64,000 nucleotides of DNA from Alphaproteobacteria bacterium (GTDB lineage Bacteria; Pseudomonadota; Alphaproteobacteria; Acetobacterales; Acetobacteraceae), in the NCBI GenBank assembly GCA_016869715.1, contig VGDM01000003.1, positions 1 through 64,000 on the forward strand, read 5' to 3'. Position 1 is the first letter of the stretch; the number at the start of each line of letters is the position of its first letter. Made by a program: the position numbers and the translations under genes. The notes below the pieces were generated by a model. It saw only the letters and a program-made list of their open reading frames with translations, was not told the origin of the DNA and ran no database searches. Below, in pieces: positions 6,395-20,297 of the stretch.

Positions 6395-7555
6395 ATGGTA
6401 AGTCAGAAAACCGCCCTCATCCTCGGCGCCGGCATCATGGGCCTTTGTACTGCCTGGGCGCTGGCGCGCGCCGGTTGGCAGGTGCGCGTGGTCGAACAGG
6501 CGCCCATCCCCAATCCCCGCGGTGCCTCGGTTGATCAGCACCGGCTGATCCGCCACGCCTACGGCGCGCAGGCCGGCTATATGCGCCTGGTTGATCCTGC
6601 CTATGCGGCCTGGGAGATGATCTGGGTCGCCATCGGCGCGCGGCATTATGTCGAAACCGGCGTGCTGGCACTCGCCAGTCATCAGGGCGGCTGGCTTGCC
6701 GAAAGCAGCATTGCCTTGCGCGGGGATGGCCATGCTTGCGCCGACCTGCCGCCAGATCAGATCACCGCGCGCTTTCCCATGCTGTCTGATACCGGCATCG
6801 CCGCGGCCTTTACCCTGCCGCGCGGCGGCGTTTTGCTCGCGGAACGCATCGTTGCCGGGCTTGCCGCGCATCTCGTGACAAAGAGTGTGGTGTTCGAAGC
6901 GGCCGAGGTCGTCGCCGCCCAACCGGCGCGCAAAACCCTGCGCTTCGCCAATGGCACTGAGCGCAGCGCTGATCTGCTGGTGCTGGCGGCCGGCCCCTGG
7001 GGGCCGAGGCTGCTCGGCACTGGGCTCGATGGGCGCGTGGTGCCGTCCCGCCAGATCCTCGTCAGGCTTGAACCCCCTCCTGGCTTCCGCGCCGCCTGGG
7101 AAGCCGCGCCCATGCTGCTTGATCTGGCCGAGGATGGCGGGTTTTACGCTGTGCCGTCGGTTGCGGGCACCGCACTCAAGATCGGGGATCACCGCTTTTC
7201 GCGCCAGGGCGATACCGGGGCCGATTCGCGCGTGGCCTCGCCCGCGGAAATTGAGGAAATCCTGGCCCTGGCCCGCCCGCGCCTGATCAACGCGGCGGGC
7301 TATCGCGTGCTAGGCGCCCAGGCTTGTTATTACGATGTGGAAGGCCGGGAGGAATTCATCCTGGAAGCCCCCACCCCCGGTTGCTTCGTCATGTCCGGCT
7401 TTTCCGGCCATGGCTTCAAATTCGCCCCGGTTTTGGGTCTGGCCCTGGCCGCAGCGGCAGAGGATAATAACCTTGCCCGCGCGCTGCCGGGCTGGGCCGC
7501 GGGGCGGGATGCCCCGGTACCCGGCCTGCTGGCCGGATTGGAGAGCACAAGATGA
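6395..7555 (+). CDS. FAD-dependent amine/amino-acid oxidase (DAO family)
   Basis: A flavoprotein of 386 residues in the DAO family (sarcosine oxidase, glycine oxidase, DadA group). It opens with the dinucleotide-binding motif ALILGAGIMGLCTAWALARAG and the glutamate-ending second strand VRVVEQAP. VDQHRLIRHAYG follows near residue 48, a region like that before the FAD-linking segment in sarcosine oxidases. The C-terminal motif FVMSGFSGHGFKFAPVLG is the usual DAO closing block. It overlaps the next gene by ATGA, so the two are probably translated together. The substrate is unknown. Confidence 0.82.
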   Translation: MVSQKTALILGAGIMGLCTAWALARAGWQVRVVEQAPIPNPRGASVDQHRLIRHAYGAQAGYMRLVDPAYAAWEMIWVAIGARHYVETGVLALASHQGGWLAESSIALRGDGHACADLPPDQITARFPMLSDTGIAAAFTLPRGGVLLAERIVAGLAAHLVTKSVVFEAAEVVAAQPARKTLRFANGTERSADLLVLAAGPWGPRLLGTGLDGRVVPSRQILVRLEPPPGFRAAWEAAPMLLDLAEDGGFYAVPSVAGTALKIGDHRFSRQGDTGADSRVASPAEIEEILALARPRLINAAGYRVLGAQACYYDVEGREEFILEAPTPGCFVMSGFSGHGFKFAPVLGLALAAAAEDNNLARALPGWAAGRDAPVPGLLAGLESTR

Positions 7556-9168
7556 CCATGACTGCCGCTGATGATCTGGTTTTCGGCCTGACGCGCCTGG
7601 TTGATCTGCCGGGGTTGACCAATGCCGCCGGCGCGCCTTTGTCAGCCGATGACATTGCGCAAATCGTGACGGAGGCGAACCGCTTCTGCACCGAAGCGCT
7701 GCAACCGAAGGCGCAGGAAGCGGATAAGCAGGGCGCGCGCTACGCCAATGGCACGGTGACAACACCGGCGCATTACCCCGCGCTTTATGACCAATGGCGC
7801 GAAGGTGGCTGGCAGGGGCTGGCGGCACCGGCGGAGCATGGTGGTCAGGGGCTGCCGCTCAGTCTTTGGACGGCCATGGTGGAATTGGGGATGGCGGCGG
7901 ATACCTCCTTCATGCTGGGCCCGTTGCTCTCCGCCGGCGCGATTGACCTGCTGCGCCATTACGCCACACCGGATCAGGCGGCGCGCTGGTTGCCGCCAAT
8001 GATCGCCGGCGAATGGACCGGCGCCATGTGCCTCACGGAACCGCAGGCTGGCAGTGATTTGGGCGTGCTGAGGACGCGTGCGGAACCGCTGGGCAATGGG
8101 CGCTACGCGCTGCATGGGCAAAAGATTTTCATCACCTGGGGCGAGCATGATTGCGCCGGCAATATCCTCCATCTGGTGCTGGCGCGGCTGCCGGATGCGC
8201 CGCCGGGCTCGCGCGGGATTTCGCTGTTTGCAGCACTGAAAATCATGCCTGGTGGTGCGCGCAATGCCTTCCGCTGCGGTGGCATCGAACGCAAGATGGG
8301 CATTCATGGCAGCCCCACCTGCATCATGCTGTATGAGGGTGCGGAGGCCGAGATGGTCGGTGAACCCAATCGCGGCCTGCAAGCCATGTTCGCCATGATG
8401 AATAATGCCAGGCTTGGCGTTGGCACCCAGGGTGTGGCGCATGGGGCGGCGGCGCTCCGGCTCGCGGAAGCCTATGCCGCGCAGCGTGTGCAAGGCGGGC
8501 GGACTATTGCGGAACACCCCGATGTCGCGCGCATGCTGATGGAAATGCGCGCCACCACGCTCGCGGCGCGGCTGATCATGCTGGAAGCGGCGGTGTCAGC
8601 GGATAAGGCGGAACTATTGGGTGATGCCGCAGCCGGCGCACGCTTGGCGCTGCTGATCCCGGTGCTGAAAGCCTGGGCGACGGATCGGGGGGTGGAAACC
8701 GCATCGCTTGGCGTGCAGGTGCATGGCGGCATGGGCTTCATCGAGGATACCGGCGCGGCGCAGGTGCTGCGCGATGCGCGCATTGCCCCGATTTATGAGG
8801 GCACCAACGGCATCCAGGCGATTGACCTGCTGACCCGCAAGCTCGCCCGCGATGGCGGGGCTGAGATGCGCGCCCTGATCGCTGAGGTCGCGGCCCTCCC
8901 CGATGCCAGGCTGCGCGCGGCAGCGGAAGGGCTGGCCCGGACCACGGAAGCGGTGCTCGCTGAACAAGGCCGCGAAGCAGAGGCTGGTCAAGCGCTGGCG
9001 AGCGCCTATCTGGATGCAGTGGGTTGGGTGCTGGGCGGTGCTCTTCTCGCGCGGGCGGCTGCGGCGGATGGCGCGGCTTATGGGGCAGTGGCGGATTTCT
9101 ATCTGCGGCGGCTTTTGCCACGCGCCGGGGCGCGGTTTGCGGAAATTGAGGGGGCCATGGCGGCTTGA
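7552..9168 (+). CDS. Acyl-CoA dehydrogenase, large (DmdC-like) type
   Basis: A 538-residue flavoenzyme that makes an alpha,beta double bond in an acyl-CoA. Visible motifs are AMCLTEPQAGSDLGVLRTRA (flavin and substrate contact), HGQKIFITWGEHD, ERKMGIHGSPTC and GGMGFIEDTGAAQVLRDARIAPIYEGTNGIQAIDLL. The extra C-terminal helical domain is typical of the roughly 580-residue subgroup that includes 3-methylthiopropanoyl-CoA dehydrogenase DmdC. No DMSP genes are near, so a specific substrate should not be assigned. It is coupled to the preceding oxidase by an ATGA overlap. Confidence 0.88.
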   Translation: MTMTAADDLVFGLTRLVDLPGLTNAAGAPLSADDIAQIVTEANRFCTEALQPKAQEADKQGARYANGTVTTPAHYPALYDQWREGGWQGLAAPAEHGGQGLPLSLWTAMVELGMAADTSFMLGPLLSAGAIDLLRHYATPDQAARWLPPMIAGEWTGAMCLTEPQAGSDLGVLRTRAEPLGNGRYALHGQKIFITWGEHDCAGNILHLVLARLPDAPPGSRGISLFAALKIMPGGARNAFRCGGIERKMGIHGSPTCIMLYEGAEAEMVGEPNRGLQAMFAMMNNARLGVGTQGVAHGAAALRLAEAYAAQRVQGGRTIAEHPDVARMLMEMRATTLAARLIMLEAAVSADKAELLGDAAAGARLALLIPVLKAWATDRGVETASLGVQVHGGMGFIEDTGAAQVLRDARIAPIYEGTNGIQAIDLLTRKLARDGGAEMRALIAEVAALPDARLRAAAEGLARTTEAVLAEQGREAEAGQALASAYLDAVGWVLGGALLARAAAADGAAYGAVADFYLRRLLPRAGARFAEIEGAMAA

Positions 9169-9251
9169 TGCCGCTTGGCGCCCTTGTCCGGCCTGGGTTG
9201 CAGTTGCCTTTGAACCTTTCCTACCGATAGAAGTTAAAGATAGAACGTTGA

Positions 9252-10823
9252 ATGAACGCATCACCTCCCTCCCTTTCGCAAACCCGCCCCCATGTCGCCG
9301 TGATCGGCGCTGGACCTGGGGGGCTGGCGGCGGCCATGCTGCTCGCTTCCTCCGGCGTAAGGGTCACAGTCTATGAAAAGGATAGCGTAGTCGGCGGGCG
9401 CACACGCGCCGTGACCGCGCCCGGCGGCTTTCGCTTCGATATCGGGCCGACCTTTTTCCTGTATCCGCGCATCCTGGCGGAAATCTTCGGAGCTTGTGGC
9501 GCGCGGCTTGAGGATGAAGTGGATCTGATCCGTCTTGATCCGCAATACCGACTGATCTTTGAAGGCGCTAACCCGGTCTCGATTGACGCAACCCCCGATC
9601 TGGCGCGCATGGAAGCGGAAGTGGCTAAGATCAACCCCGCCGATGCCCCTGGCGTGCGGAGCTTCATGGCGGAAAACCGCGTGAAGCTGGAAGCCTTCCG
9701 CCCGGTGCTGCAACGGCCCTTCCATGGTGTGATGACCTACCTGGCGCCGGAAGTGATGAATGGGCTCAAGCACTTGCGGCCCTGGCTTTCGCTGGATCAG
9801 GAATTGCAAAGACACTTCTCCGATCCGCGCACGCGCTTGGCGTTTTCCTTTCAGTCCAAATACCTGGGCATGAGTCCCTTCCGCTGCCCGAGCATGTTCT
9901 CCATCCTGTCCTTCCTGGAATATGAACATGGCGTGTTTCATCCGCGGGGCGGTTGCGGCGTGGTGTCTGAAGCCATGGCGCGCGTTGCTGAAAGCGTGGG
10001 CGTGGATATTCGCCTGAACACCACGGTTGATCGCATTGTCTTTGAAGGCCGCCGCGCGGTCGGTGTGGAAGCAGGCGGGCGGCTGCATGCGGCAGATGCG
10101 GTGGTGGTGAATGCCGATTTCGCCCATGCCATTCCGGGGCTGATGGAAGAAGAACAGCGCCCGCAATGGCCCGACAAGAAAATTGCCGAAGCGCGGTATT
10201 CCTGTTCTACCTTCATGCTTTACCTTGGCATTGAAGGGAAACTTGATCTGGCGCATCACTCGGTGCTGCTGGCCGAGGACTATGAGAATAATCTGGCACA
10301 AATCGAAGCCGGCACCATTCCGCAAAACCCCTCGCTTTATGTGCAGGCAGCGGCTGGCACTGATCCGTCACTCGCCCCGCCTGGGCATTCCACGCTTTAC
10401 ATGCTGGTGCCGGTGCCGAATTTGTTGGGCGGGGCGGATTGGGCCGCTGAGGCACCGCATTATCGGCGGCTGGCACTAGATCGGCTGAAGGCGCTTGGCC
10501 TGCATGATATCGAAAACCGCATCCGGTATGAAAAAATCCTCTCGCCGCAAGGCTGGCAGGATGACTATGCGGTGGGCTATGGCGCCACCTTCAACCTTGC
10601 GCATAATGTGCGTCAGATGATGCATTTCCGCCCGCGCAATCGCTTCGGCCGCGCGAAGGGTGTTTATCTGGTGGGCGGCGGCACGCATCCGGGCAGTGGC
10701 TTGCCGGTGATTTACGAAGGTGCGCGCATCAGCACCGATTTATTATTGCAGGATCTGGGCCTCGCGCGGAGCGAGCGTGGCCCGCGCCATATGCGGGCCA
10801 ATCTGTCCGTTTCTGGCGACTGA
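9252..10823 (+). CDS. CrtN/CrtP-family C30 carotenoid desaturase or oxidase (first copy)
   Basis: First gene of the carotenoid operon. The 523-residue product belongs to the CrtI/CrtN/CrtP flavoprotein family: FAD motif VAVIGAGPGGLAAAMLLASSG, GGRTRAVTAPGGFRFDIGPTF, then a C-terminal THPGSGLPVIYEGARIS block. In C30 pathways one such enzyme desaturates squalene or diapophytoene stepwise, and another oxidises the terminal methyl to an aldehyde. This copy and the next presumably divide those jobs, but sequence reading does not show which does which. It ends 15 bases before the next gene, which has its own AAGGAGAGGG ribosome site. Confidence 0.85.
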   Translation: MNASPPSLSQTRPHVAVIGAGPGGLAAAMLLASSGVRVTVYEKDSVVGGRTRAVTAPGGFRFDIGPTFFLYPRILAEIFGACGARLEDEVDLIRLDPQYRLIFEGANPVSIDATPDLARMEAEVAKINPADAPGVRSFMAENRVKLEAFRPVLQRPFHGVMTYLAPEVMNGLKHLRPWLSLDQELQRHFSDPRTRLAFSFQSKYLGMSPFRCPSMFSILSFLEYEHGVFHPRGGCGVVSEAMARVAESVGVDIRLNTTVDRIVFEGRRAVGVEAGGRLHAADAVVVNADFAHAIPGLMEEEQRPQWPDKKIAEARYSCSTFMLYLGIEGKLDLAHHSVLLAEDYENNLAQIEAGTIPQNPSLYVQAAAGTDPSLAPPGHSTLYMLVPVPNLLGGADWAAEAPHYRRLALDRLKALGLHDIENRIRYEKILSPQGWQDDYAVGYGATFNLAHNVRQMMHFRPRNRFGRAKGVYLVGGGTHPGSGLPVIYEGARISTDLLLQDLGLARSERGPRHMRANLSVSGD

Positions 10824-10838
10824 GAAGGAGAGGGCGCG

Positions 10839-12422
10839 ATGGGTGCCACGGTAGTTGTCATTGGCAGTGGTTTGGGTGGGCTTGCAGCCGCCGCGACCGC
10901 GCAGGCGCGTGGGCATCAGGTCACGGTCCTTGAGCGTAATGCCTGGCTGGGCGGCAAGGCAGCGGTGCTGAACCTGCCATCACCGGATGGGCGCGGAAAT
11001 TTCCGTTTCGATATGGGCCCGACCATCCTGACCATGCCGCGCGTGCTGCGCCGCATTTTCGCGGAAGCAGGGCGCAATCAACAGCAGGCAATTCCGCTCA
11101 TTCGGCTTGATCCGCAATGGCGCTGCTTTTTTGATGGCAGCAAGCAGATTGATCTGATCGAAAACGTTCAGGACATGGCGCGGCTGATGGATGACTTCGC
11201 GCCCGGCGGCAACATTGGCGCAGGGTATGAACGCTTTCAGCGCGTTGCGCGCCATTTGCACAAGGTGTCCGAGAAATTCTTCTTCTGGAAGCCCGTGGAA
11301 GGCATCGGCGATACGCTGAACCTTGGCGATAATTTCAAGCCGGATGTATTGCGTGATGTCATAGCGTTGCGCATGGGCCAGACGGTGGCGAAAGTCATTC
11401 GCGGTCATGTGCCAAATGATCAATTGGCACAGATGCTGGATCACTTCACGCAATATGTCGGATCAAGCCCCTATTTGGCGCCTGCCGTGCTGTGCAGCAT
11501 TGGCGATATGCAGGCATCCGAAGGTGTGTGGTATCCGGTGGGTGGCACGCGCGCGACGGCGGAAGGGCTTGCCAATCTGGCGGCCTCGCTCGGCGCTGAT
11601 CTCCGCACCAATGCCGAGGTCACGGATATTGAGATTGTGGGCGGCGCGGTGCGCAGCGTGACCGCGAACGGTGAACGCATTGCCTGTGATGCGCTGATTT
11701 CGAACATGGATGCCATCCGCACCTATACGGAATTGGTGAAGCGCAATGCTTCGCAGCGCTATGCCAAGAAGTATGAGCCCGCCTGTTCCGGCGTGGTGCT
11801 CTATCTCGGGCTCAATCGCCGCTACGAACATTTGGCGCATCATGACTTTGTTTTCTCCCGCGATGCGGAAGAAGAATTCGATGCGATCTACTGCAAGGGT
11901 GAACCGGCGCCAGACCCGACAGCTTATCTGGCCGCGCCATCAGGCACGGATCCTTCGGTCGCGCCGGAGGGTGGGGAAGCGCTATATGTGCTGGTGCACA
12001 CGCCCTATCTCCGCCCGCATCATGATTGGACGAAGATGTTCCCGGCCTATCGCCAGAAAATTCTGGACAAGCTGAAGCGCACGGCGGGCATGGAAGATAT
12101 CGAAAACCGCATTGTCTGCGAAAGCCAATTGACACCGGTGGATATCCATAACCGCTACAAGGTTCTTAATGGCGCGATTTATGGCATCGCTTCACATGGT
12201 TCCTTCACCGGCGCCTTCAAGCCAAGCAATCGCAGCAAGGCCATCAAGGGGCTCTATTTGGCGGGCGGCGCGGCGCATCCCGGCCCCGGCATGCCGATGG
12301 TCATGATGTCCGGCTGGATCGCTGCCGATGCGCTGGACCGTGACCATGGCGGGCGCGGCATGTCGCTCGAAGCGGAATTGGCCGGCCGGCGAGAGGCCGA
12401 ATTGCCAGCCGCGGCGGAATGA
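10839..12422 (+). CDS. CrtN/CrtP-family C30 carotenoid desaturase or oxidase (second copy)
   Basis: A 527-residue relative of the preceding protein. It has the FAD motif VVVIGSGLGGLAAAATAQARG, GGKAAVLNLPSPDGRGNFRF followed by DMGPTILTMPRVLRRIFAEAG, and a C-terminal AAHPGPGMPMVMMSGWIAAD block. The two copies share layout but differ widely, consistent with distinct steps rather than recent duplication. The stop overlaps the next start (ATGA), so translation is probably coupled. The role as desaturase or terminal oxidase is inferred from family and operon, not read from a diagnostic residue. Confidence 0.85.
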   Translation: MGATVVVIGSGLGGLAAAATAQARGHQVTVLERNAWLGGKAAVLNLPSPDGRGNFRFDMGPTILTMPRVLRRIFAEAGRNQQQAIPLIRLDPQWRCFFDGSKQIDLIENVQDMARLMDDFAPGGNIGAGYERFQRVARHLHKVSEKFFFWKPVEGIGDTLNLGDNFKPDVLRDVIALRMGQTVAKVIRGHVPNDQLAQMLDHFTQYVGSSPYLAPAVLCSIGDMQASEGVWYPVGGTRATAEGLANLAASLGADLRTNAEVTDIEIVGGAVRSVTANGERIACDALISNMDAIRTYTELVKRNASQRYAKKYEPACSGVVLYLGLNRRYEHLAHHDFVFSRDAEEEFDAIYCKGEPAPDPTAYLAAPSGTDPSVAPEGGEALYVLVHTPYLRPHHDWTKMFPAYRQKILDKLKRTAGMEDIENRIVCESQLTPVDIHNRYKVLNGAIYGIASHGSFTGAFKPSNRSKAIKGLYLAGGAAHPGPGMPMVMMSGWIAADALDRDHGGRGMSLEAELAGRREAELPAAAE

Positions 12423-13237
12423 CCAAGACGCCGGGACAACAAATGCTTGATCCAGTGGCGCTGCGATCGCTACGCCATTTGGATTTTTTTGATTTCATAT
12501 TCATGCGTTTCTTCGCGAAACACATGCGCGCCTTGCGCGTGGCGCGCTGGGGCCTGCCGGAATTGCCGGCGGGCAAACCGGCCGTGATATTCGCCAACCA
12601 CCCATCCTGGTGGGATGGCGTGGCCTTCATGCTGCTCTATCGCCGGCTATTGCCAGAACGCCCCTTGTTCACACCGATGGCTGCCGCGGCACTCGAAAAA
12701 TATCGTTTCATGAAGCGACTTGGCGTTTTCGGGATCGAGACCGGGTCGGCGCGCGGGTCGGTCGCGTTTTTGCGCGTGGTGGAAAAGGTGCTGGCCGATC
12801 CCGCGCATATTCTGTGGATCAATGCGCCCGGGCGTTTCAGCGATCCGCGCGAAAGGCCGGTGCCGATTGCGCCTGGCATGATCCGCCTGCCAGAAATGGC
12901 GCCGGAGGCAGTGTTTGTGCCACTCGCGCTGGATTACCCGTTCTGGAGTGAGCGCAAGGCCGAAATGCTCGCCGCTTTCGGCGCGCCCATCCCGGCTGCG
13001 ACGCTGCTGGAAGCGCCGCGTGAAGCGCGCAACGCCATGCTGTCCACTGCTTTGGCTGAGGTGATGGAAAAACTCAGCGCCGATGCGATTGCGCGCGATC
13101 CCGCTGCCTTCCAGACCCTGGTGCAGGGGCGCGAAGGTATGGGCGGCATTTATCAAAGCTGGCGCCGCGCCAAGGCCCTGCTGCGCGGTGAACGCTTCGA
13201 CCCCCGACACGAGCAACGCGCGGAGACAACGCCATGA
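12419..13237 (+). CDS. PlsC-type acyltransferase of the carotenoid operon
   Basis: A 272-residue lysophospholipid-acyltransferase-fold protein. It shows the catalytic HX4D motif in FANHPSWWDG near residue 60, then a PLFTPMAAAALEKYRFMKRLGVFGI block and GSARGSVAFLRVVEKVL. The position between the desaturases and the glycosyltransferase suggests it esterifies a fatty acid to the sugar of a glycosyl-C30 carotenoate, the job of CrtO in staphyloxanthin synthesis. The fold is PlsC-like. Function is inferred from the operon. It overlaps both neighbours by four bases. Confidence 0.8.
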   Translation: MTKTPGQQMLDPVALRSLRHLDFFDFIFMRFFAKHMRALRVARWGLPELPAGKPAVIFANHPSWWDGVAFMLLYRRLLPERPLFTPMAAAALEKYRFMKRLGVFGIETGSARGSVAFLRVVEKVLADPAHILWINAPGRFSDPRERPVPIAPGMIRLPEMAPEAVFVPLALDYPFWSERKAEMLAAFGAPIPAATLLEAPREARNAMLSTALAEVMEKLSADAIARDPAAFQTLVQGREGMGGIYQSWRRAKALLRGERFDPRHEQRAETTP

Positions 13238-14337
13238 CAGATTTCCTGCCCTGGATTGCGCTGGCATTGGCGCTGATGCCGGTCGGTTTCGCGCTGGATA
13301 ACCTCCGCCGCATGGCGAAGGCAGCGGGGCCGGCACCCAAGGATGCGCTGGTATCCATCCTGATCCCAGCGCGTAATGAGGAAGCGCATATCAGCGCCTG
13401 CCTAGATACCGCACTTGCGCAGCTAGGTGTCGCGATTGAATTGCTGGTGATGGATGATGGGTCGAGTGATCGCACGGCAGCGATTGTTAGCGCCTATGCC
13501 GCGCGGGATGCGCGGGTGCGGCTTTTGGCGTGCCCGCCACTGCCGCAAGGCTGGACCGGCAAGGTGCATGCCTGTGCGCGGCTGGCAGAGGCAGCACGGG
13601 GGACGCATTTCCTGTTCATTGATGCTGATGTGCGGCTTGCGCGTGATTCAGCAGCCCGCATGGCTGGCCATGCCACGCGGCAGAGGCTTGCGATGGTGAC
13701 TGGCGTGCCGCGCCAGATCATCGGCAGTTTGGGTGAGGCGCTGACCGTGCCCATGATCAACCTGCTGCTGATCGGCTATCTGCCAGGTGGTGGGCGGGCC
13801 GAGACTGAACGCGCGGAGCTTGGCGCGGCTTGCGGCCAGTTGATTCTGTTTGAGCGTGGCGCTTACGAATCCATCGGTGGCCATGGCGCCATTCGTACAC
13901 TGTTGCATGATGGCCTACAGCTTTCGCGCAAGCTGCGCAGTGCCGGTTTCCGCACCGAAATAGTGGAAGGCGTCAAGCTTGCCGAATGCCGCATGTATGA
14001 TGGGCTGCGTTCAAGCTGGAATGGCTTCATCAAGAATGCGCATGAAGGCATGGCGACACCCATTGGCCTGCCAATCTGGACGACGCTTTTAGCGGGCGCG
14101 CATATTTGGCCGTTCTTTCTGTTGCCGGAATGGCAGGCGGCGCTCGCCACTCTACTGGTCTTTGGCTTGCGCGCTGCCATCACATACAGGACCCGTGAAG
14201 CCTGGTGGACCGTGCCGCTGCATCCCTTCGCCGTACTGGTTGGGCTTGCCATTCAATGGACCGCGCTGGTGCGGGTGCTGATCGGGCGCCCCGCCGGTTG
14301 GAAGGGCCGCGCCTATTCCGCCAGCGGCACGGCATGA
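13234..14337 (+). CDS. Family 2 glycosyltransferase of the carotenoid operon (CrtQ-like)
   Basis: A 367-residue membrane-associated glycosyltransferase. An N-terminal membrane segment (FLPWIALALALMPVGFAL) is followed by the GT-A core: VSILIPARNEEAHISACLD, LLVMDDGSSDRTAAIV, GWTGKVHACARLAEAA and the metal-binding FLFIDADVRL. Two or three membrane helices close the protein (near IGLPIWTTLLAGAHIWPFFLL, then to the end). CrtQ of the staphyloxanthin pathway and hopanoid-associated HpnB share this architecture. The operon favours glucosylation of a C30 carotenoic acid. ATGA overlaps occur at both ends. Confidence 0.82.
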   Translation: MTDFLPWIALALALMPVGFALDNLRRMAKAAGPAPKDALVSILIPARNEEAHISACLDTALAQLGVAIELLVMDDGSSDRTAAIVSAYAARDARVRLLACPPLPQGWTGKVHACARLAEAARGTHFLFIDADVRLARDSAARMAGHATRQRLAMVTGVPRQIIGSLGEALTVPMINLLLIGYLPGGGRAETERAELGAACGQLILFERGAYESIGGHGAIRTLLHDGLQLSRKLRSAGFRTEIVEGVKLAECRMYDGLRSSWNGFIKNAHEGMATPIGLPIWTTLLAGAHIWPFFLLPEWQAALATLLVFGLRAAITYRTREAWWTVPLHPFAVLVGLAIQWTALVRVLIGRPAGWKGRAYSASGTA

Positions 14338-15995
14338 TTGCTGATAGCGCTGCTTCCCGCGCGCCGACGCGCGACTCGGGGTCTGAGAATTTTCCGGTGG
14401 CGTCCCGGCTGTTGGCGCCGGAAATACGCCCGAAGGTGCTGGGCTTCTACCGCTTCGTGCGCGCCGCTGATGATATTGCCGATGATCCGGCCCTAACCGC
14501 CGAGGAAAAGCTGCGCCGTCTGGCGGCGCTCGAAGCCGCGCTTGATGATCTCGCCACGGAGGAACCCGCTGCCACCGCATTGCATCGCGCTGTGAGTGGT
14601 ACGGATGAGGCGCGGCTGATGCTCTCCGCCTTTCGGCAGGATGCGGTGCAAGCGCGCTATGCCGATTGGGCCGGCTTGGAAGATTACTGCGCGCGGTCAG
14701 CCAATCCTGTCGGGCGCATGTTGCTCCGTCTCCATCATGAAACAAAACCCGAGGCGATTGCCGCCGCCGATGCGCTTTGCACCGCTTTGCAAATCCTCAA
14801 TCACCTGCAGGATCTCGTGCCGGATCGGCGTGATATCGGGCGCGTCTATCTGCCCGAAGCCTGGATGGATTTGGCCGGCGGTGAGGCGCGGTTTTTTGAT
14901 GCTGCCAATACCAAGGCTCGGCGCGCCGTGTTGGATGCCGCGCTCCATCAGGTTGAGGAAAGGCTGGATGCCGCCGCCGCAGTGCCGCGCCTGATCGCGG
15001 CGAAGCGCCTGGCGCGCGAATGCAGTGTCACCATCGCACTCGCACGGCGGCTCCTGGCAAAGCTGCGCGCGGCTGATCCGGTAGTGGAGCGGGTTGCGCT
15101 ATCGCGGCTTGATATTCTGCACGGGTTTCGTGCGGCACTCGGCACCGGGCCAAGCGATGCGGCGCTGGTCAGTGTGCGGGTTGGGCGCGCGGGGTCTTCC
15201 TTCGCGCGTGGCATGTCAGCGCTAAAGGGCGAAAGGCGCCGTGCGCTTTGGGCGGTTTATGCCTTTTGCCGCGCGGTGGATGACATTGCCGATGGCGCAA
15301 TGCCGGAAGCGGAAAAGCGCCGGTTCCTGGCTGATTGGCGCGGCAAGCTCCGCGCACCGGATTGTGCGCTCTCGCGCGAATTGACGCGGGCACGGGGCGC
15401 CTTCTCACTCCCGATTGAAGAATGTGAAGCGATGATTGCGGGCATGGAAACGGATGCCACACCAAGGCTCCGCATCGCCGATAGCGAAGCGCTCAACCTT
15501 TATTGTCGCCGCGTCGCTGGCAGCGTCGGTGTCATGGCAGTACGGATTTTCGGCGCGTCGGAAGCGGCTGATTTCGGCCTTGGGCTTGGGCGCACGCTGC
15601 AATTGGTGAATATCCTGCGCGACATGGATGAGGATGCAACGCGCGACCGCGTCTATCTGCCGCTTGATTTTCTGATTGCCGAAGGTGTTGCAGATGCGCC
15701 TGCTGCCACGCTGATCGCAAGCCCGGGCTTTGCCCGCGCCGCAGCGCATTTGGCACAGCAAGCGAAAGCCGGCTTTGCGCAAGCAGCGGCAGAGCTACCC
15801 CATTTGGATCAGCGCGCCCTTTTGCCGGCGCGCATCATGATGTGGGGCTATCAGCGGCTGTTTGAACGGCTCATGGCGCGCGGCTTTGGCTTACCGCGGC
15901 CACGCCCATGCCTGACGCGGGGCGAGAAACTGCAAATGGCAGCCTTTGCCATGGGAATCATACCCATGCCGCAAGCCAGCACCAGCCGCGCATGA
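14334..15995 (+). CDS. Bifunctional presqualene/hydroxysqualene enzyme: HpnC-HpnD fusion
   Basis: A single 553-residue chain holding two complete squalene/phytoene-synthase folds. Residues about 15-265 read as HpnC (ENFPVASRLL, FYRFVRAADDIADDP with the first aspartate motif at 46-51, NHLQDLVPD at 156-164, RVYLPEAW). Residues about 285-553 read as HpnD (SSFARGMSALKGERRRALW, FCRAVDDIADG at 316-320, LVNILRDMDEDATRDRVYLP with D430 and D434). HpnD makes presqualene diphosphate from two farnesyl diphosphates and HpnC converts it to hydroxysqualene. Normally these are separate proteins of roughly 280 residues. No stop or frame change occurs at the join. ATGA/ATGAG overlaps couple it to its neighbours. 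Confidence 0.88.
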   Translation: MIADSAASRAPTRDSGSENFPVASRLLAPEIRPKVLGFYRFVRAADDIADDPALTAEEKLRRLAALEAALDDLATEEPAATALHRAVSGTDEARLMLSAFRQDAVQARYADWAGLEDYCARSANPVGRMLLRLHHETKPEAIAAADALCTALQILNHLQDLVPDRRDIGRVYLPEAWMDLAGGEARFFDAANTKARRAVLDAALHQVEERLDAAAAVPRLIAAKRLARECSVTIALARRLLAKLRAADPVVERVALSRLDILHGFRAALGTGPSDAALVSVRVGRAGSSFARGMSALKGERRRALWAVYAFCRAVDDIADGAMPEAEKRRFLADWRGKLRAPDCALSRELTRARGAFSLPIEECEAMIAGMETDATPRLRIADSEALNLYCRRVAGSVGVMAVRIFGASEAADFGLGLGRTLQLVNILRDMDEDATRDRVYLPLDFLIAEGVADAPAATLIASPGFARAAAHLAQQAKAGFAQAAAELPHLDQRALLPARIMMWGYQRLFERLMARGFGLPRPRPCLTRGEKLQMAAFAMGIIPMPQASTSRA

Positions 15996-17218
15996 GCAGT
16001 AGCGCCACATGCCATGTCATTGGCGCCGGAGTCGCGGGCTTGGTGGTGGCACTACGGCTCGCAGAGCGTGGCCGCGCCGTGATGTTGCATGAGGCAACAC
16101 CTGTGGCGGGCGGGCGCTGTCGTGCTTTGCCCGATGGTACGGATAATGGCACCCACGCGCTGATGGGCGCCAATCGCGCCGCGCTGCGTTTCCTGACCGA
16201 TATCGGTGCGCGAGAGGGCTGGGTGGAAGCCGAACCGGAAGGCCTGCCGGTTTTTGACCTGGCCGATGGCAGCGCGCGGCGCATTGCCGCAAGCCCGCTT
16301 GATTGGCGCGATCCCGCCAAGCGCCCGCCGGGGCTGAGTGCTGCTGCCTTCACCACATTGCTGCGCCTTGCTTTGCCGATTGGGGATCGCCCGGTCGCGG
16401 AAGTGATGGCGGCGCATCCTGCGCTGTATCGTGCGTTGATCGAACCGCTCACGGTCGCGGCACTGAATACGCCGGGGCATGAGGCATCATCGGCACGGCT
16501 TGGCGTGGTGTTGCGCCGGCTAGGGTGGCCAAGGGCGGGCGCGGTGCTGGTGGCGCGTAAAGGGCTCGGGCCGGATTTGATTGCGCCTGCGCTCCACACC
16601 TTACAGCAAGCGGGGGTGAGCACACGTTTCGGGGCGCGGTTGCGCGCTATGACGGAAGCGGAAGGGCGCATCATTGCGCTGCATTTCGGTGATGACAGCA
16701 TCGCGCTGGAAGCCCGGGATCAGGTGGTACTGGCGCTGCCGCCCTGGGAAGTTGCGCGCATGATCCCAAAGCTGCGCGTGCCGGAACGCCATGCGCCGAT
16801 TCTCAATCTGCATTTCGCGCATGGCGGTACGGGGCCGGTGCGCTTCATCGGTGTGCTGGGCGGGCTGACGCAATGGGTCCTGGTGCGCCCGAGCGGCGTG
16901 AGTGTCACCGTGAGTGCGGCAGATGCTGAAGTGGAAGAACAGGCGCCGGATTTGGCGCCGCGAGCCTGGGCGGAAATTCGTGCTGCCGCCCAGGGTTTTG
17001 GCTTGCCTGGCGATTGGCCGGAAGCGCCGCCGGCGATCCGCGCGGTGAAGGAACGCCGCGCCACACCGCGCCATGCGGTTGGCATGCCGCCGCAACCGCC
17101 AAGGCAGGTGCATCGCAACCTGGTACTCGCTGGCGATTGGACCTGGCCGGGCCTGCCTGCCACCATTGAAGCTGCGGTGCTTTCGGGCGAGGCCGCCGAG
17201 AAAGCCGTGCCGCGATGA
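15992..17218 (+). CDS. hpnE: Hydroxysqualene dehydroxylase HpnE
   Basis: HpnE is the flavoprotein that reduces hydroxysqualene to squalene, completing the three-enzyme bacterial route. The 408-residue product has the FAD motif CHVIGAGVAGLVVALRLAERG, EATPVAGGRCRALPDG and NGTHALMGANRAALRFL, followed by LIEPLTVAALNTPGHEASS. The C-terminal LVLAGDWTWPGLPATIEAAV closes the FAD site. These are hallmarks of squalene-associated FAD proteins. It starts inside the end of the HpnC-HpnD gene (ATGAG), which supports joint function. Confidence 0.88.
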   Translation: MSSSATCHVIGAGVAGLVVALRLAERGRAVMLHEATPVAGGRCRALPDGTDNGTHALMGANRAALRFLTDIGAREGWVEAEPEGLPVFDLADGSARRIAASPLDWRDPAKRPPGLSAAAFTTLLRLALPIGDRPVAEVMAAHPALYRALIEPLTVAALNTPGHEASSARLGVVLRRLGWPRAGAVLVARKGLGPDLIAPALHTLQQAGVSTRFGARLRAMTEAEGRIIALHFGDDSIALEARDQVVLALPPWEVARMIPKLRVPERHAPILNLHFAHGGTGPVRFIGVLGGLTQWVLVRPSGVSVTVSAADAEVEEQAPDLAPRAWAEIRAAAQGFGLPGDWPEAPPAIRAVKERRATPRHAVGMPPQPPRQVHRNLVLAGDWTWPGLPATIEAAVLSGEAAEKAVPR

Positions 17219-18555
17219 CCCCTGCCGAAGCCCTTGGCGCCTTGCGCGCTGCGGAAGCGCGGGATGGCGCGCCCAATCTCAAGCAACGTCGCGCGTTATT
17301 GGCGGCACTCGCGCGCGCGGTGATGGCGCGCTCACATGACATCATGGCGGTGGTCGATGCCGAATACGAAGGCCGCGCGCCGATTGAAACCTTGCTCGCG
17401 GATGTGCTGCTGGTGGCCGATGCGGCGCGCTACGTGCGGCGCAATTTGTGGCATTGGATGCGCCCGCGGCGTGTGAGTGTGCCCTATCCCTTCTGGCCGG
17501 CGCGCGCGCGGGAGGAATTCGTCCCCAAGGGCGTGGTTGGCATCATGGCGCCCTGGAATTACCCGGTGCAATTGGCGCTGCTGCCGGCGATTGATGCCAT
17601 TGCCGCCGGCAATCGTGTTTGCGTAAAACCATCGGAAGCTCTGCCGCGCACCGCGGGACTGATTGCCGATATCCTACGCGATGCCTGGGGCGATGACGTA
17701 GCACTTTGCGTGCAAGGCGGCGCGGAAGTTGGCGCCGATTTCGCGGCGCAAGCCTGGGATCATCTGGTCTTTACCGGGAGCACCGCGACCGGGCGCAAGA
17801 TCATGGCCGCTGCCGCGCCGAACCTCACGCCTCTCACGCTGGAACTGGGCGGCAAATGTCCGGTGCTCGTGCTGCCGGGCGCGGATCTCAAGCGCGCCGC
17901 GCGCGATATTCTGGCGGGCAAGGCCTTCAATGCCGGGCAGACCTGCGTGGCGCCGGATACGGTGCTGCTGGTTGGGCATGGCATGCAGGCTTTCATTGAT
18001 GCCTGTCGGGAAGCCGGCATCGGCCTGCCGGAAACTGGCGTCATCAATTCAACGCGAGTTACCCAGCTTCGCCGCCTGATGGTGGGCGCCAGCCTGACCC
18101 CCTTGGCCGAGGGCGGGCCGGGCCGCCGCATGGCGCTGACACTGGCGGAGGCACCGCCCGAAGCCGCCATCTGCCATGAGGAAATCTTCGGCCCGATACT
18201 ACTTATGCGCGAAGAAACTTCACTTCAGCTAGCACTTGCCTGGGTTGCAGAGCGCCCCGCGCCCTTGGCCATCTATCTGTTTGGTGCAACGCCTGAGGAA
18301 GAAAATCAGGCCGCGCGCATCGCCCGCGGCAGCGCCATCATCACCGGGCGCACTGTGGAGTTTGCGGGTTTTCAAGCCTTGAGCTTCGGTGGATCGGGGG
18401 ATTCCGGCTTTGGGCGGCGCAATGGGCTGGCAGGTTTTCAAGAATTTTCCCATCGCCGCGCCCGCGTGAATCACGGGAAATTTTCCCTGTCGCGGTTATT
18501 CGATCAACCTCGTGGGAAAGCTATAGAAAGGCTTAAAAATTTTCTAGCCAAATAG
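17215..18555 (+). CDS. Aldehyde dehydrogenase of the carotenoid operon (CrtNc/AldH-like)
   Basis: Last gene of the operon. The 446-residue NAD(P)-dependent aldehyde dehydrogenase has PKGVVGIMAPWNYPVQLALL, the cofactor loop VFTGSTATGRKIM, the general base glutamate in LELGGKCPVL, the catalytic cysteine in FNAGQTCVAPD and EEIFGPILL. In C30 pathways such an enzyme oxidises the terminal carotenoid aldehyde to the acid before glycosylation. Resemblance to coniferyl-aldehyde-type dehydrogenases leaves other aldehydes possible, but the operon argues for the carotenoid. Its last 30 codons are noticeably AT-richer than the rest. Confidence 0.83.
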   Translation: MTPAEALGALRAAEARDGAPNLKQRRALLAALARAVMARSHDIMAVVDAEYEGRAPIETLLADVLLVADAARYVRRNLWHWMRPRRVSVPYPFWPARAREEFVPKGVVGIMAPWNYPVQLALLPAIDAIAAGNRVCVKPSEALPRTAGLIADILRDAWGDDVALCVQGGAEVGADFAAQAWDHLVFTGSTATGRKIMAAAAPNLTPLTLELGGKCPVLVLPGADLKRAARDILAGKAFNAGQTCVAPDTVLLVGHGMQAFIDACREAGIGLPETGVINSTRVTQLRRLMVGASLTPLAEGGPGRRMALTLAEAPPEAAICHEEIFGPILLMREETSLQLALAWVAERPAPLAIYLFGATPEEENQAARIARGSAIITGRTVEFAGFQALSFGGSGDSGFGRRNGLAGFQEFSHRRARVNHGKFSLSRLFDQPRGKAIERLKNFLAK

Positions 18556-18579
18556 ATTTTTCCCACCTATGCACATCTT

Positions 18580-19192
18580 ATGGTTGTTTTTCTCCCAACT
18601 GCTCCCGTAGCAGAAACACCTCGCCTTCGCATGCGATGCGTCGAAGACCGCGACGCCCCGGCCATTGCGGAAATGCTGACCGAAGCGATCAGCAAGCGCC
18701 TTGCCTCCTGGCCCATACCATTCTCCCCCCCCCGTGGCGGAGGAGAAGATCAGTTCAGCCCGCGCCGCGGCGGCGGAAAGGCGGTCCCTGCCGCTGGTGC
18801 TGGAGCGGAAATCCGATGGTGCGATTTGTGGCTGGGTCAGCCTGATCTGCGCAACAGGCAATGATCGCGTAGCGCTGACTACCTATTGGCTCGGTGAGCA
18901 GTATCAGGGCGAGGGGCTGATGCGTGAAGCGGGGCCGGTCGCGGTGGAATTGGCCTTCAAGCATATGGATATTGATTGCCTGCGTGCGGCGGTGCAGCCG
19001 GATAATGTGGCCTCACCCGCGGTCACTCGCCTCCTGGGCTTTGGCTCGCTTGGGGAAGGGCGTATTTGGTGCCCATCCCGCGGCATTGAAGAAACCTGCC
19101 TTTGTTTCGAAAAGCCGCGCCCCGTAGTGCCGGTCTGGGCGGCTGGGGCAGCGCTCGCCAAGCCGGATCTGGTGCGGCAGATTTCCGCCTGA
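18580..19192 (+). pseudogene. GNAT acetyltransferase frameshifted at a C9 tract
   Basis: The first frame (from ATG 18580) gives RLRMRCVEDRDAPAIAEML and reaches SWPIPFSPP. The coding sequence then continues one base out of frame as VAEEKISSARAAAAERRSLP and on through a GNAT core (AICGWVSL, LTTYWLGEQYQGEGLMREA, VQPDNVASPAVTRLLGFGSLG) to 19192. The shift coincides with nine consecutive C at 18725-18733, and eight would restore one frame of about 204 codons. As sequenced the protein is truncated near residue 94. This may be slippage, phase variation or a base-call error. The acetylation target is unknown. Confidence 0.75.
18725..18733 (+). repeat. C9 homopolymer at a frameshift
   Basis: Nine C in a row, exactly where the GNAT frame breaks. 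Homopolymers of this length slip during replication and are also frequent sites of sequencing error. Confidence 0.9.
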
Positions 19193-19313
19193 AGCCAGAC
19201 CATCATTGTAGTTGAGATGCGCATGGACGGCAGCGCCGCCCCTGCGGTATTCTTCCGTTGAAACGCTGGTGGCCCATCTGCCAGCGCGACCAAAACAAAC
19301 GGGAGAGGTTTTC

Positions 19314-20297
19314 ATGGCAGCATCGCTTTCGCGGCGCCGGGTCTTGCTAGGCAGCGCCGGGCTCATTGGCATCAGCGGCTCGAGCGGCGCTTTTGCACAA
19401 ACCAATTGGCCGGACCGGCCGGTGCGCCTGGTTGTCGGCTTCACCGCTGGCAGCGCCACAGATGTGACGGGGCGCATTTTCGCGCAGAGGTTTTCCGAAG
19501 CCTGGGGCCAACCGGTGGTCGTTGAAAACGTCGCCGGTAATTCAGGGGCAATTGGCGTTGATCGTGTCGCAAAATCGGCGCCTGATGGCTATACACTGAT
19601 GTGGGCGGCCAGTGCGGCGCTGACGATCCTGCCCAACCTACAACGCCTGCCCTTTGATCCCATGAAGGATCTGGCGCCGATTGGCATTGCCTTTGCCATG
19701 CCATCGCTTTTTGTTTCAAACCGAGACTTTCCGCCGCGCAATATCCAGGAACTGGTCGCCTATGCGCGCGCCAACCCGGGTAAGGTATCCTATGGCACGC
19801 CAGGTGTTGGCACGCCGCAGCATATTGCCGGTGAGCTGTTCTGCTATCAGGCCGGTATCAAGATGGAACATATCCCCTATCGCGGGGCAAATATGACGGA
19901 TGTTCTGAATGGCAGCGTGCAAATCGGCATTCAGAATATCGGCGCCGTGTTGCCCATGGTGCGCGATGGGCAATTGCGCGGCCTCAGTATCACCACCCTG
20001 CAACGTTCGACCAATGCGCCGGATATGCCGACCATGGTTGAGCAAGGCTTCCCGGGTTTTGAGGCAAGTTCCTGGTTCGGCACCATGGCGCCGGCCGGCA
20101 CGCCGCAGCCGATCCTGGATAGGGTGCACGCGACATCCCAGGCCATTCTGGTCGATCCCGCGATGCGGCAGCGCTTCAACGGGCTTGGGCTTGATATCAT
20201 CGCCGGCAATGGTGAACAGATGCGCGCCACCATCGCGAGCAATATCGAAAGATGGGCGAAGGTGATCCGGGATTCAGGGATCAAGGTGCAGAGCTGA
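19314..20297 (+). CDS. Bug-family (tripartite tricarboxylate) solute-binding protein
   Basis: A second TctC/Bug receptor, 327 residues. It has a Tat-type leader (SLSRRRVLLGSAGLIGISG, cleavage near FAQ), then NWPDRPVRLVVGFTAGSATDV, GQPVVVENVAGNSGAIGVD, SYGTPGVGTPQHIAGELF and FPGFEASSWFGTMAPAGTP. The ATG at 19314 follows GGGAGAGG; an earlier in-frame ATG-type start (19212) would put extra residues before the signal peptide. It is not a close copy of the protein at 3892. There are no transporter membrane genes beside it, so the ligand is unknown. Confidence 0.88.
   Translation: MAASLSRRRVLLGSAGLIGISGSSGAFAQTNWPDRPVRLVVGFTAGSATDVTGRIFAQRFSEAWGQPVVVENVAGNSGAIGVDRVAKSAPDGYTLMWAASAALTILPNLQRLPFDPMKDLAPIGIAFAMPSLFVSNRDFPPRNIQELVAYARANPGKVSYGTPGVGTPQHIAGELFCYQAGIKMEHIPYRGANMTDVLNGSVQIGIQNIGAVLPMVRDGQLRGLSITTLQRSTNAPDMPTMVEQGFPGFEASSWFGTMAPAGTPQPILDRVHATSQAILVDPAMRQRFNGLGLDIIAGNGEQMRATIASNIERWAKVIRDSGIKVQS

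Follow-up and report, generated by a model that had tools for sequence, protein, structure and literature searches.

A fused hpnC–hpnD gene within a predicted C30 carotenoid-type operon of an Acetobacteraceae bacterium

Genes for HpnC and HpnD are easily taken as markers of hopanoid synthesis, and a single gene that encodes both raises the question of what its product is for. The gene in question lies in the first 64,000 nucleotides of contig VGDM01000003.1 (GenBank assembly GCA_016869715.1), from an alphaproteobacterium of the family Acetobacteraceae; this whole stretch is referred to here as the window, and coordinates are positions in it, with all listed genes on the + strand. At 14334–15995, the gene encodes in one chain of 553 residues a putative hydroxysqualene-forming half followed by a putative presqualene diphosphate-forming half. 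It very probably specifies a squalene-forming enzyme of two domains that serves C30 carotenoid synthesis and arose through the loss of a stop codon between hpnC and hpnD, and its use in this organism is most likely in pigment formation. The structure of the gene, the identity of its domains, its operon, its distribution and its phylogeny were observed directly.

As the initial annotation had claimed, 14334–15995 is one uninterrupted frame, with an ATG start, 553 codons plus a stop, and no internal stops. The list of open reading frames gave it an earlier GTG start at 14205 and a length of 596 residues, but the ATG at 14334 is preferred because it produces a 4-base overlap with the preceding stop codon, as is seen in six of the eight gene pairs between 6395 and 18555 (the remaining gaps being 83 and 15 bases). 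NCBIfam profiles match HpnC at residues 15–268 (14376–15137; TIGR03464) and HpnD at residues 284–537 (15183–15944; TIGR03465), with a junction of 15 residues between the two matches (residues 269–283; 15138–15182). Each half prefers its own family: scored alone, the N-terminal half gives 225.1 bits for HpnC against 101.8 for HpnD, and the C-terminal half 231.6 bits for HpnD against 117.4 for HpnC. The whole protein scores above the curated cut-offs (HpnC, 333.6 bits against 250.45; HpnD, 321.3 bits against 278.6), but this is due solely to the addition of two stretches. In a joint tree of 65 sequences (32 HpnC, 32 HpnD and one CrtB), all 32 HpnC sequences fall together with a support of 99 (starred) and all 32 HpnD sequences with a support of 81 (unstarred), each half of the window protein grouping with the 31 others of its family. 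Tandem duplication of a single enzyme was ruled out by this tree, as the halves represent two families.

The aspartates to which the initial annotation had pointed (D46–D51, D160–D164, D316–D320 and D430–D434) are present as named, and neither half has lost a catalytic residue of this kind, both aspartate motifs being kept in each; D51, on the other hand, is not invariant. Across ten fused proteins, D46, D47, D50, D160, D164, D316, D317, D320, D430 and D434 do not vary. When 17 fused proteins of greater diversity are compared, eight of these ten are invariant, including all five of the HpnD half (D316, D317, D320, D430 and D434, 17/17), with D46 nearly so and D47 replaced by N in L097. Among solved relatives are HpnC 4hd1, which resembles the first half, and CrtM 8is6, which resembles the second. 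The assignment of the halves as HpnC then HpnD, with their predicted aspartate motifs intact, is supported by the profile matches, the separate scores and the joint tree.

A chain of this kind might be an artefact of assembly, or its halves might be made separately through internal initiation, and the junction does contain an in-frame GTG at 15174, with an ATG following at 15213. However, codons 259–285 are free of gaps and stops in 17 of the 17 same-genus genomes compared (L006–L022), and the stop or frameshift between the halves that the initial annotation had considered as evidence against a fusion occurs in none of them. Divergence from the window across the junction in these genomes is 0.087, 0.044 and 0.259 at codon positions 1, 2 and 3, making it around six times higher at third than at second positions, and both domains show a similar pattern, which points to an unbroken coding sequence under selection. 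The GTG at 15174 corresponds to residue 281, which is V in the window but A in all 17 relatives and is therefore not a conserved start, and the ATG at 15213 (residue 294) falls within the HpnD match. Assembly error is excluded, since the fusion is widespread in the genus and family and its junction evolves as coding sequence, and the artefact and internal initiation together are considered extremely improbable. All 20 of the regions taken as fused (L039–L058) are single frames. One TGA each is present in the search rows of G030, G049 and G069; of these, the regions of G049 and G069 were read and are single frames. G080, G048 and G138 seemed fused by their equal open-frame lengths but proved to have separate genes, and an apparent fusion in L074 and L075 was rejected, as one gene there matches both queries.

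A use for the fused product is suggested by its neighbours. The gene stands in a same-strand run that begins with an acyl-CoA dehydrogenase-like gene (termed FadE in this analysis; 7552–9168), which travels with the cluster, and continues with two CrtI-family desaturase/oxidase genes, CrtNa (9252–10823; TIGR02734, 500.6 bits) and CrtNb (10839–12422; TIGR02734, 391.8 bits; cut-off for both, 238.1), whose CrtN/CrtP type is assigned by context, no CrtN or CrtP model having matched. These are followed by an acyltransferase, a candidate carotenoid glycoside acylase (12419–13237; PF01553, 28.4 bits, cut-off 23), and a family 2 glycosyltransferase (GT2), a candidate carotenoid glycosylase (13234–14337; PF00535, 76.4 bits; CruG/HpnB-like, under the cut-offs). 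Downstream of the fusion are an HpnE-like flavin adenine dinucleotide (FAD) oxidoreductase, a putative hydroxysqualene dehydroxylase (15992–17218; TIGR03467, 236.1 bits, its best family, cut-off 283.05), and an aldehyde dehydrogenase, a candidate maker of a terminal carboxyl group (17215–18555; PF00171, 205.1 bits). The pairs GT2–HpnCD and HpnCD–HpnE are among those that overlap by 4 bases. A scan of 7000–19500 for promoters and terminators gave no excess over shuffled sequences (1 vs. 2.8 and 11 vs. 12.3). Of the 40 further family genomes that carry a carotenoid-type fusion, regions from 16 were compared (six from the genus and ten from other genera), and the order FadE–CrtNa–CrtNb–acyltransferase–GT2–HpnCD–HpnE is kept in 13 of these; FadE is present in 14, and the G039 and G081 regions have HpnCD–HpnE alone. 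To our knowledge, no role in C30 carotenoid synthesis has been ascribed to FadE. By the predicted functions of its members, the local gene set is a squalene-route C30 carotenoid-type operon.

From these assignments, we infer the catalysis, the product and the order of the pathway. The C-terminal HpnD half would convert two farnesyl diphosphate into presqualene diphosphate, which the N-terminal HpnC half would convert into hydroxysqualene, and HpnE, encoded by the next gene, would reduce hydroxysqualene to squalene. From squalene, a C30 carotenoid acid in the form of its acylated glycosyl ester may then be made by both CrtI-family oxidases together with the aldehyde dehydrogenase, glycosyltransferase and acyltransferase. 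In Methylobacterium extorquens AM1, squalene is the precursor of an acylated and glycosylated C30 carotenoid, as evidenced through overexpression of hpnC and hpnD and deletion of glycosyltransferase and acyltransferase genes (PMC10448405), and in Azospirillum brasilense Sp7, the deletion of hpnCDE or of crtNPOQ is stated to abolish carotenoids (PMC13274349). As described there, both systems are like that of the window in combining squalene from HpnCDE with CrtN/CrtP-type oxidases, a glycosyltransferase and an acyltransferase. Both, however, have hpnC, hpnD and hpnE named apart and in a locus separate from the carotenoid genes, whereas in the window hpnC and hpnD are fused and lie inside the carotenoid operon.

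The distribution of the fusion was drawn from searches of 146 genomes, of which 35 belong to the genus (the window's own included), 54 to the rest of the family and 57 to the rest of the class. A match spanning both halves is present in 31 of the 35 genus genomes (the window's own and 30 of the 34 others, G006 and G009 giving partial rows), so the same fusion, for which the initial annotation had suggested a search in related genomes, does occur in them. It is also found in at least 12 of the 54 other family genomes (ten from the carotenoid-type group together with G035 and G063), and in at least two of the 57 elsewhere in the class (G102 and G120). Squalene-hopene cyclase (SHC; TIGR01507, E up to 0.001) was detected in 46 of the 54 family genomes and 12 of the 57 class genomes, and in none of the 35 from the genus, including that of the window. 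HpnH, counted only over its cut-off because weak matches occur in 28 of 28 genomes searched and 14 of 14 controls, was found in none of the 17 genus members tested and in nine of 11 other family members. Within the genus, the fusion and CrtNb (>700 bits) occur together in 30 of the 35 genomes, are jointly absent from three (G001, G003 and G016) and are discordant in two (G017 and G032). This combination suggests that squalene in the genus most likely feeds pigment and not hopanoids, pigment being the only likely use of the fusion product there. The names of the two enzymes would themselves suggest hopanoid synthesis as the role of the fusion, free HpnC and HpnD genes adjoin SHC in many relatives, and fusions adjoin it in G035, G063 and Acetobacter sacchari. 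Nevertheless, with no SHC in any of the 35 genus genomes, no HpnH over the cut-off in the 17 tested and a carotenoid-type operon around the fusion, a hopanoid role is considered highly improbable and was rejected for this genus. As this genus has yielded no SHC and its fusion most likely serves pigment, annotations of HpnC and HpnD should be checked for an accompanying cyclase.

Beyond the genus, the product may be shared between pathways. Eight related genomes (G037, G049, G055, G058, G069, G070, G078 and G081) contain both SHC and HpnH, with the fused copy as the only HpnD match of >200 bits and all remaining HpnD matches at or below 194.7 bits, and Roseomonas nepalensis and Roseococcus pinisoli follow the same pattern of HpnD and SHC. 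The view that the matches below 200 bits are CrtB-like rests on the window genome and, elsewhere, on score and, for some, on CrtI neighbours. In these eight genomes, one enzyme should therefore feed both pathways, and the fusion would supply hopanoids too. Pseudoroseomonas coralli and Roseomonas sp. E05 possess the fusion plus a free HpnD (330 bits) adjoining HpnE and SHC, and in G050 the carotenoid operon lacks the fusion, with HpnC and HpnD occurring as free genes near SHC. The genome of Roseococcus pinisoli (G153) was also seen to carry two SHC genes, at C1:60565–62514 and C8:288892–290763.

Several observations weigh against a squalene-forming role in pigment synthesis. Both halves alone, and HpnE, score under their NCBIfam cut-offs, and substrate or product could therefore have shifted. 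The G032 region (L053 7368–12092) consists of FadE–HpnCD–HpnE, with no matches to CrtN, the acyltransferase or GT2 found there, and the TIGR01507 search of the G032 genome gave no match to SHC; squalene would thus have another use in that genome, or the genes are relics. G017, an assembly of 770 contigs, has CrtNb with no fusion detected. For the eight SHC-containing genomes, the sole-copy result covers HpnD, as scored with the HpnD model, and does not extend to free HpnC. The window genome also encodes a CrtB-like phytoene synthase (L002 1417–2466; 383 bits, model cut-off 500), and so may make C40 carotenoids as well. Finally, M. extorquens did not require two candidate aldehyde dehydrogenases (PMC10448405), which makes the role of the window's aldehyde dehydrogenase unsure.

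The scores under the cut-offs also bear on the alternative that the halves make dehydrosqualene in the manner of CrtM, or some other C30 product, directly, with squalene bypassed. CrtM-like enzymes are likewise at the top of the Foldseek matches in the PDB, with HpnC 4hd1 at rank 5, but fold matches cannot separate these subfamilies, and those to the predicted structure confirm the domain fold and not the subfamily. Against a direct route, the joint tree (holding one CrtB and no CrtM) places the halves with HpnC and HpnD, the HpnE gene and the fusion share a 4-base overlap, and the three genomes whose fused HpnCD has no adjoining HpnE match (L084, L085 and L086) each carry a canonical HpnE (387–400 bits) elsewhere. 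The bypass of squalene is therefore regarded as unlikely, and a chain that forms squalene by way of presqualene diphosphate is preferred.

Such a chain might also channel presqualene diphosphate between its two active sites. The AlphaFold2 model, built with 17 sequences, has a mean predicted local distance difference test (pLDDT) score of 91.0 and a predicted template modelling (pTM) score of 0.86, and its junction contains a helix at residues 275–286, with pLDDT values of 79–83 across residues 261–300. The pTM score of this two-domain chain suggests that the domain arrangement may be fixed, and the recurrence and persistence of fusions on the tree described below would also be in keeping with channelling. 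Recurrence is, however, equally explained by balanced expression, or by chance and drift, and the HpnC–HpnD order is that of the genes and not of the reactions, which is neutral on the matter. Channelling is consequently put forward as a tentative idea, with the odds against it. More doubtful again is the wider proposal of a channelling squalene synthase whose placement in the carotenoid operon gives a squalene supply independent of the hopanoid locus, with one lineage having dropped hopanoids and others sharing the enzyme between pathways.

The initial annotation knew of no description of such a fusion, but one exists: fused hpnCD genes were reported in 2017 from subdivision 2 Acidobacteria, Actinobacteria (Actinopolyspora and Blastococcus) and Rhodospirillum centenum (PMC5462960). 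Like the window gene, these are, by their description, of approximately double length with the HpnC part first and the HpnD part second. The acidobacterial fusion is described there within a hopanoid gene cluster, in contrast to the C30 carotenoid-type operon of the window, whose genus gave no SHC match. A link between an hpnCD fusion and C30 carotenoids was not found in the literature searched, a weak negative given thin coverage of subscription journals and texts available in part. The hpnCD fusion itself was thus already known, and the window adds a well-supported, conserved new case, in a setting not met in the literature searched. Both this operon setting and the genus-wide result for SHC had been overlooked in the initial annotation.

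The origin of the fusion was considered on a tree of HpnC and HpnD placed end to end, entered only by loci with both halves (94 rows, with 13 loci dropped for stops, short length or being copies, by which G049 was lost); the named loci in it are the best 80 of 586, and its rows are not a random sample. This tree requires nine changes of the fused state, six of which are forced by starred branches. A more careful tree of 65 of the 94 rows, omitting 21 near copies and eight branches that are long or unsure, requires seven changes, six of them forced, and a single change occurs in 0 of 200 bootstrap trees, although the counted changes can include losses. The carotenoid-type fusions form one clade of 14 rows, comprising Roseomonas and its kin, Microvirga, G102 and Inquilinus (support 96/88, starred), which joins unfused genes of Jannaschia, Wenxinia and Salipiger in the Roseobacteraceae (99/87, starred). 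These unfused genes adjoin carotenoid genes too. The hopanoid-type HpnC and HpnD of the family are placed elsewhere on the tree: the free copies beside SHC in the Acetobacteraceae belong to the same two enzyme families but to another clade, with free HpnD at 325–331 bits (G050, Pseudoroseomonas coralli and Roseomonas sp. E05) vs. 206–264 bits among those carotenoid-type fused copies that were scored. Apart from this clade stand the fusions of G035, Acetobacter sacchari, G063, an Omnitrophota, a Tectomicrobia and, weakly placed (85/37), Niveispirillum, and from their positions these look separate.

Among the best 80 of the 586 named loci, 17 are fused (three of them already among the 146 genomes), and in eight others a single stop codon is all that separates an hpnC and an hpnD of one frame; L059, outside these 80, is a ninth such case. 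The one-stop loci are L059, L090, L092, L093, L095, L099, L100, L105 and L113, and their state is possibly a step before fusion or one after its loss. HpnC comes first in ten of ten fused proteins and in 16 of 17 of a further set (one not located), an order that fits the loss of one stop codon between neighbouring genes, which would be the simplest route to fusion. For the window, the lost stop codon would have stood between an hpnC and a neighbouring hpnD of a carotenoid-type lineage, distinct from the hopanoid hpnC and hpnD of the family. Several apparently separate fusions and the one-stop unfused states make up a natural set for testing the effect of fusion on the flux of a reactive lipid intermediate.

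In two Microvirga loci (L087 and L088), a fused HpnCD lies in a carotenoid operon that keeps the gene order, with CrtNa and CrtNb set apart by a gap; no match to FadE or to the aldehyde dehydrogenase was found in these operons, or to SHC in either genome. The Microvirga fused proteins fall in the Roseomonas clade, and gene transfer is likely. Two metagenome records, both labelled Asaia bogorensis (L079 and L114), have very different hpnC and hpnD genes, those of L079 being fused and 89% identical to the window and those of L114 unfused and 46% identical, and at least one of the two labels is therefore doubtful.

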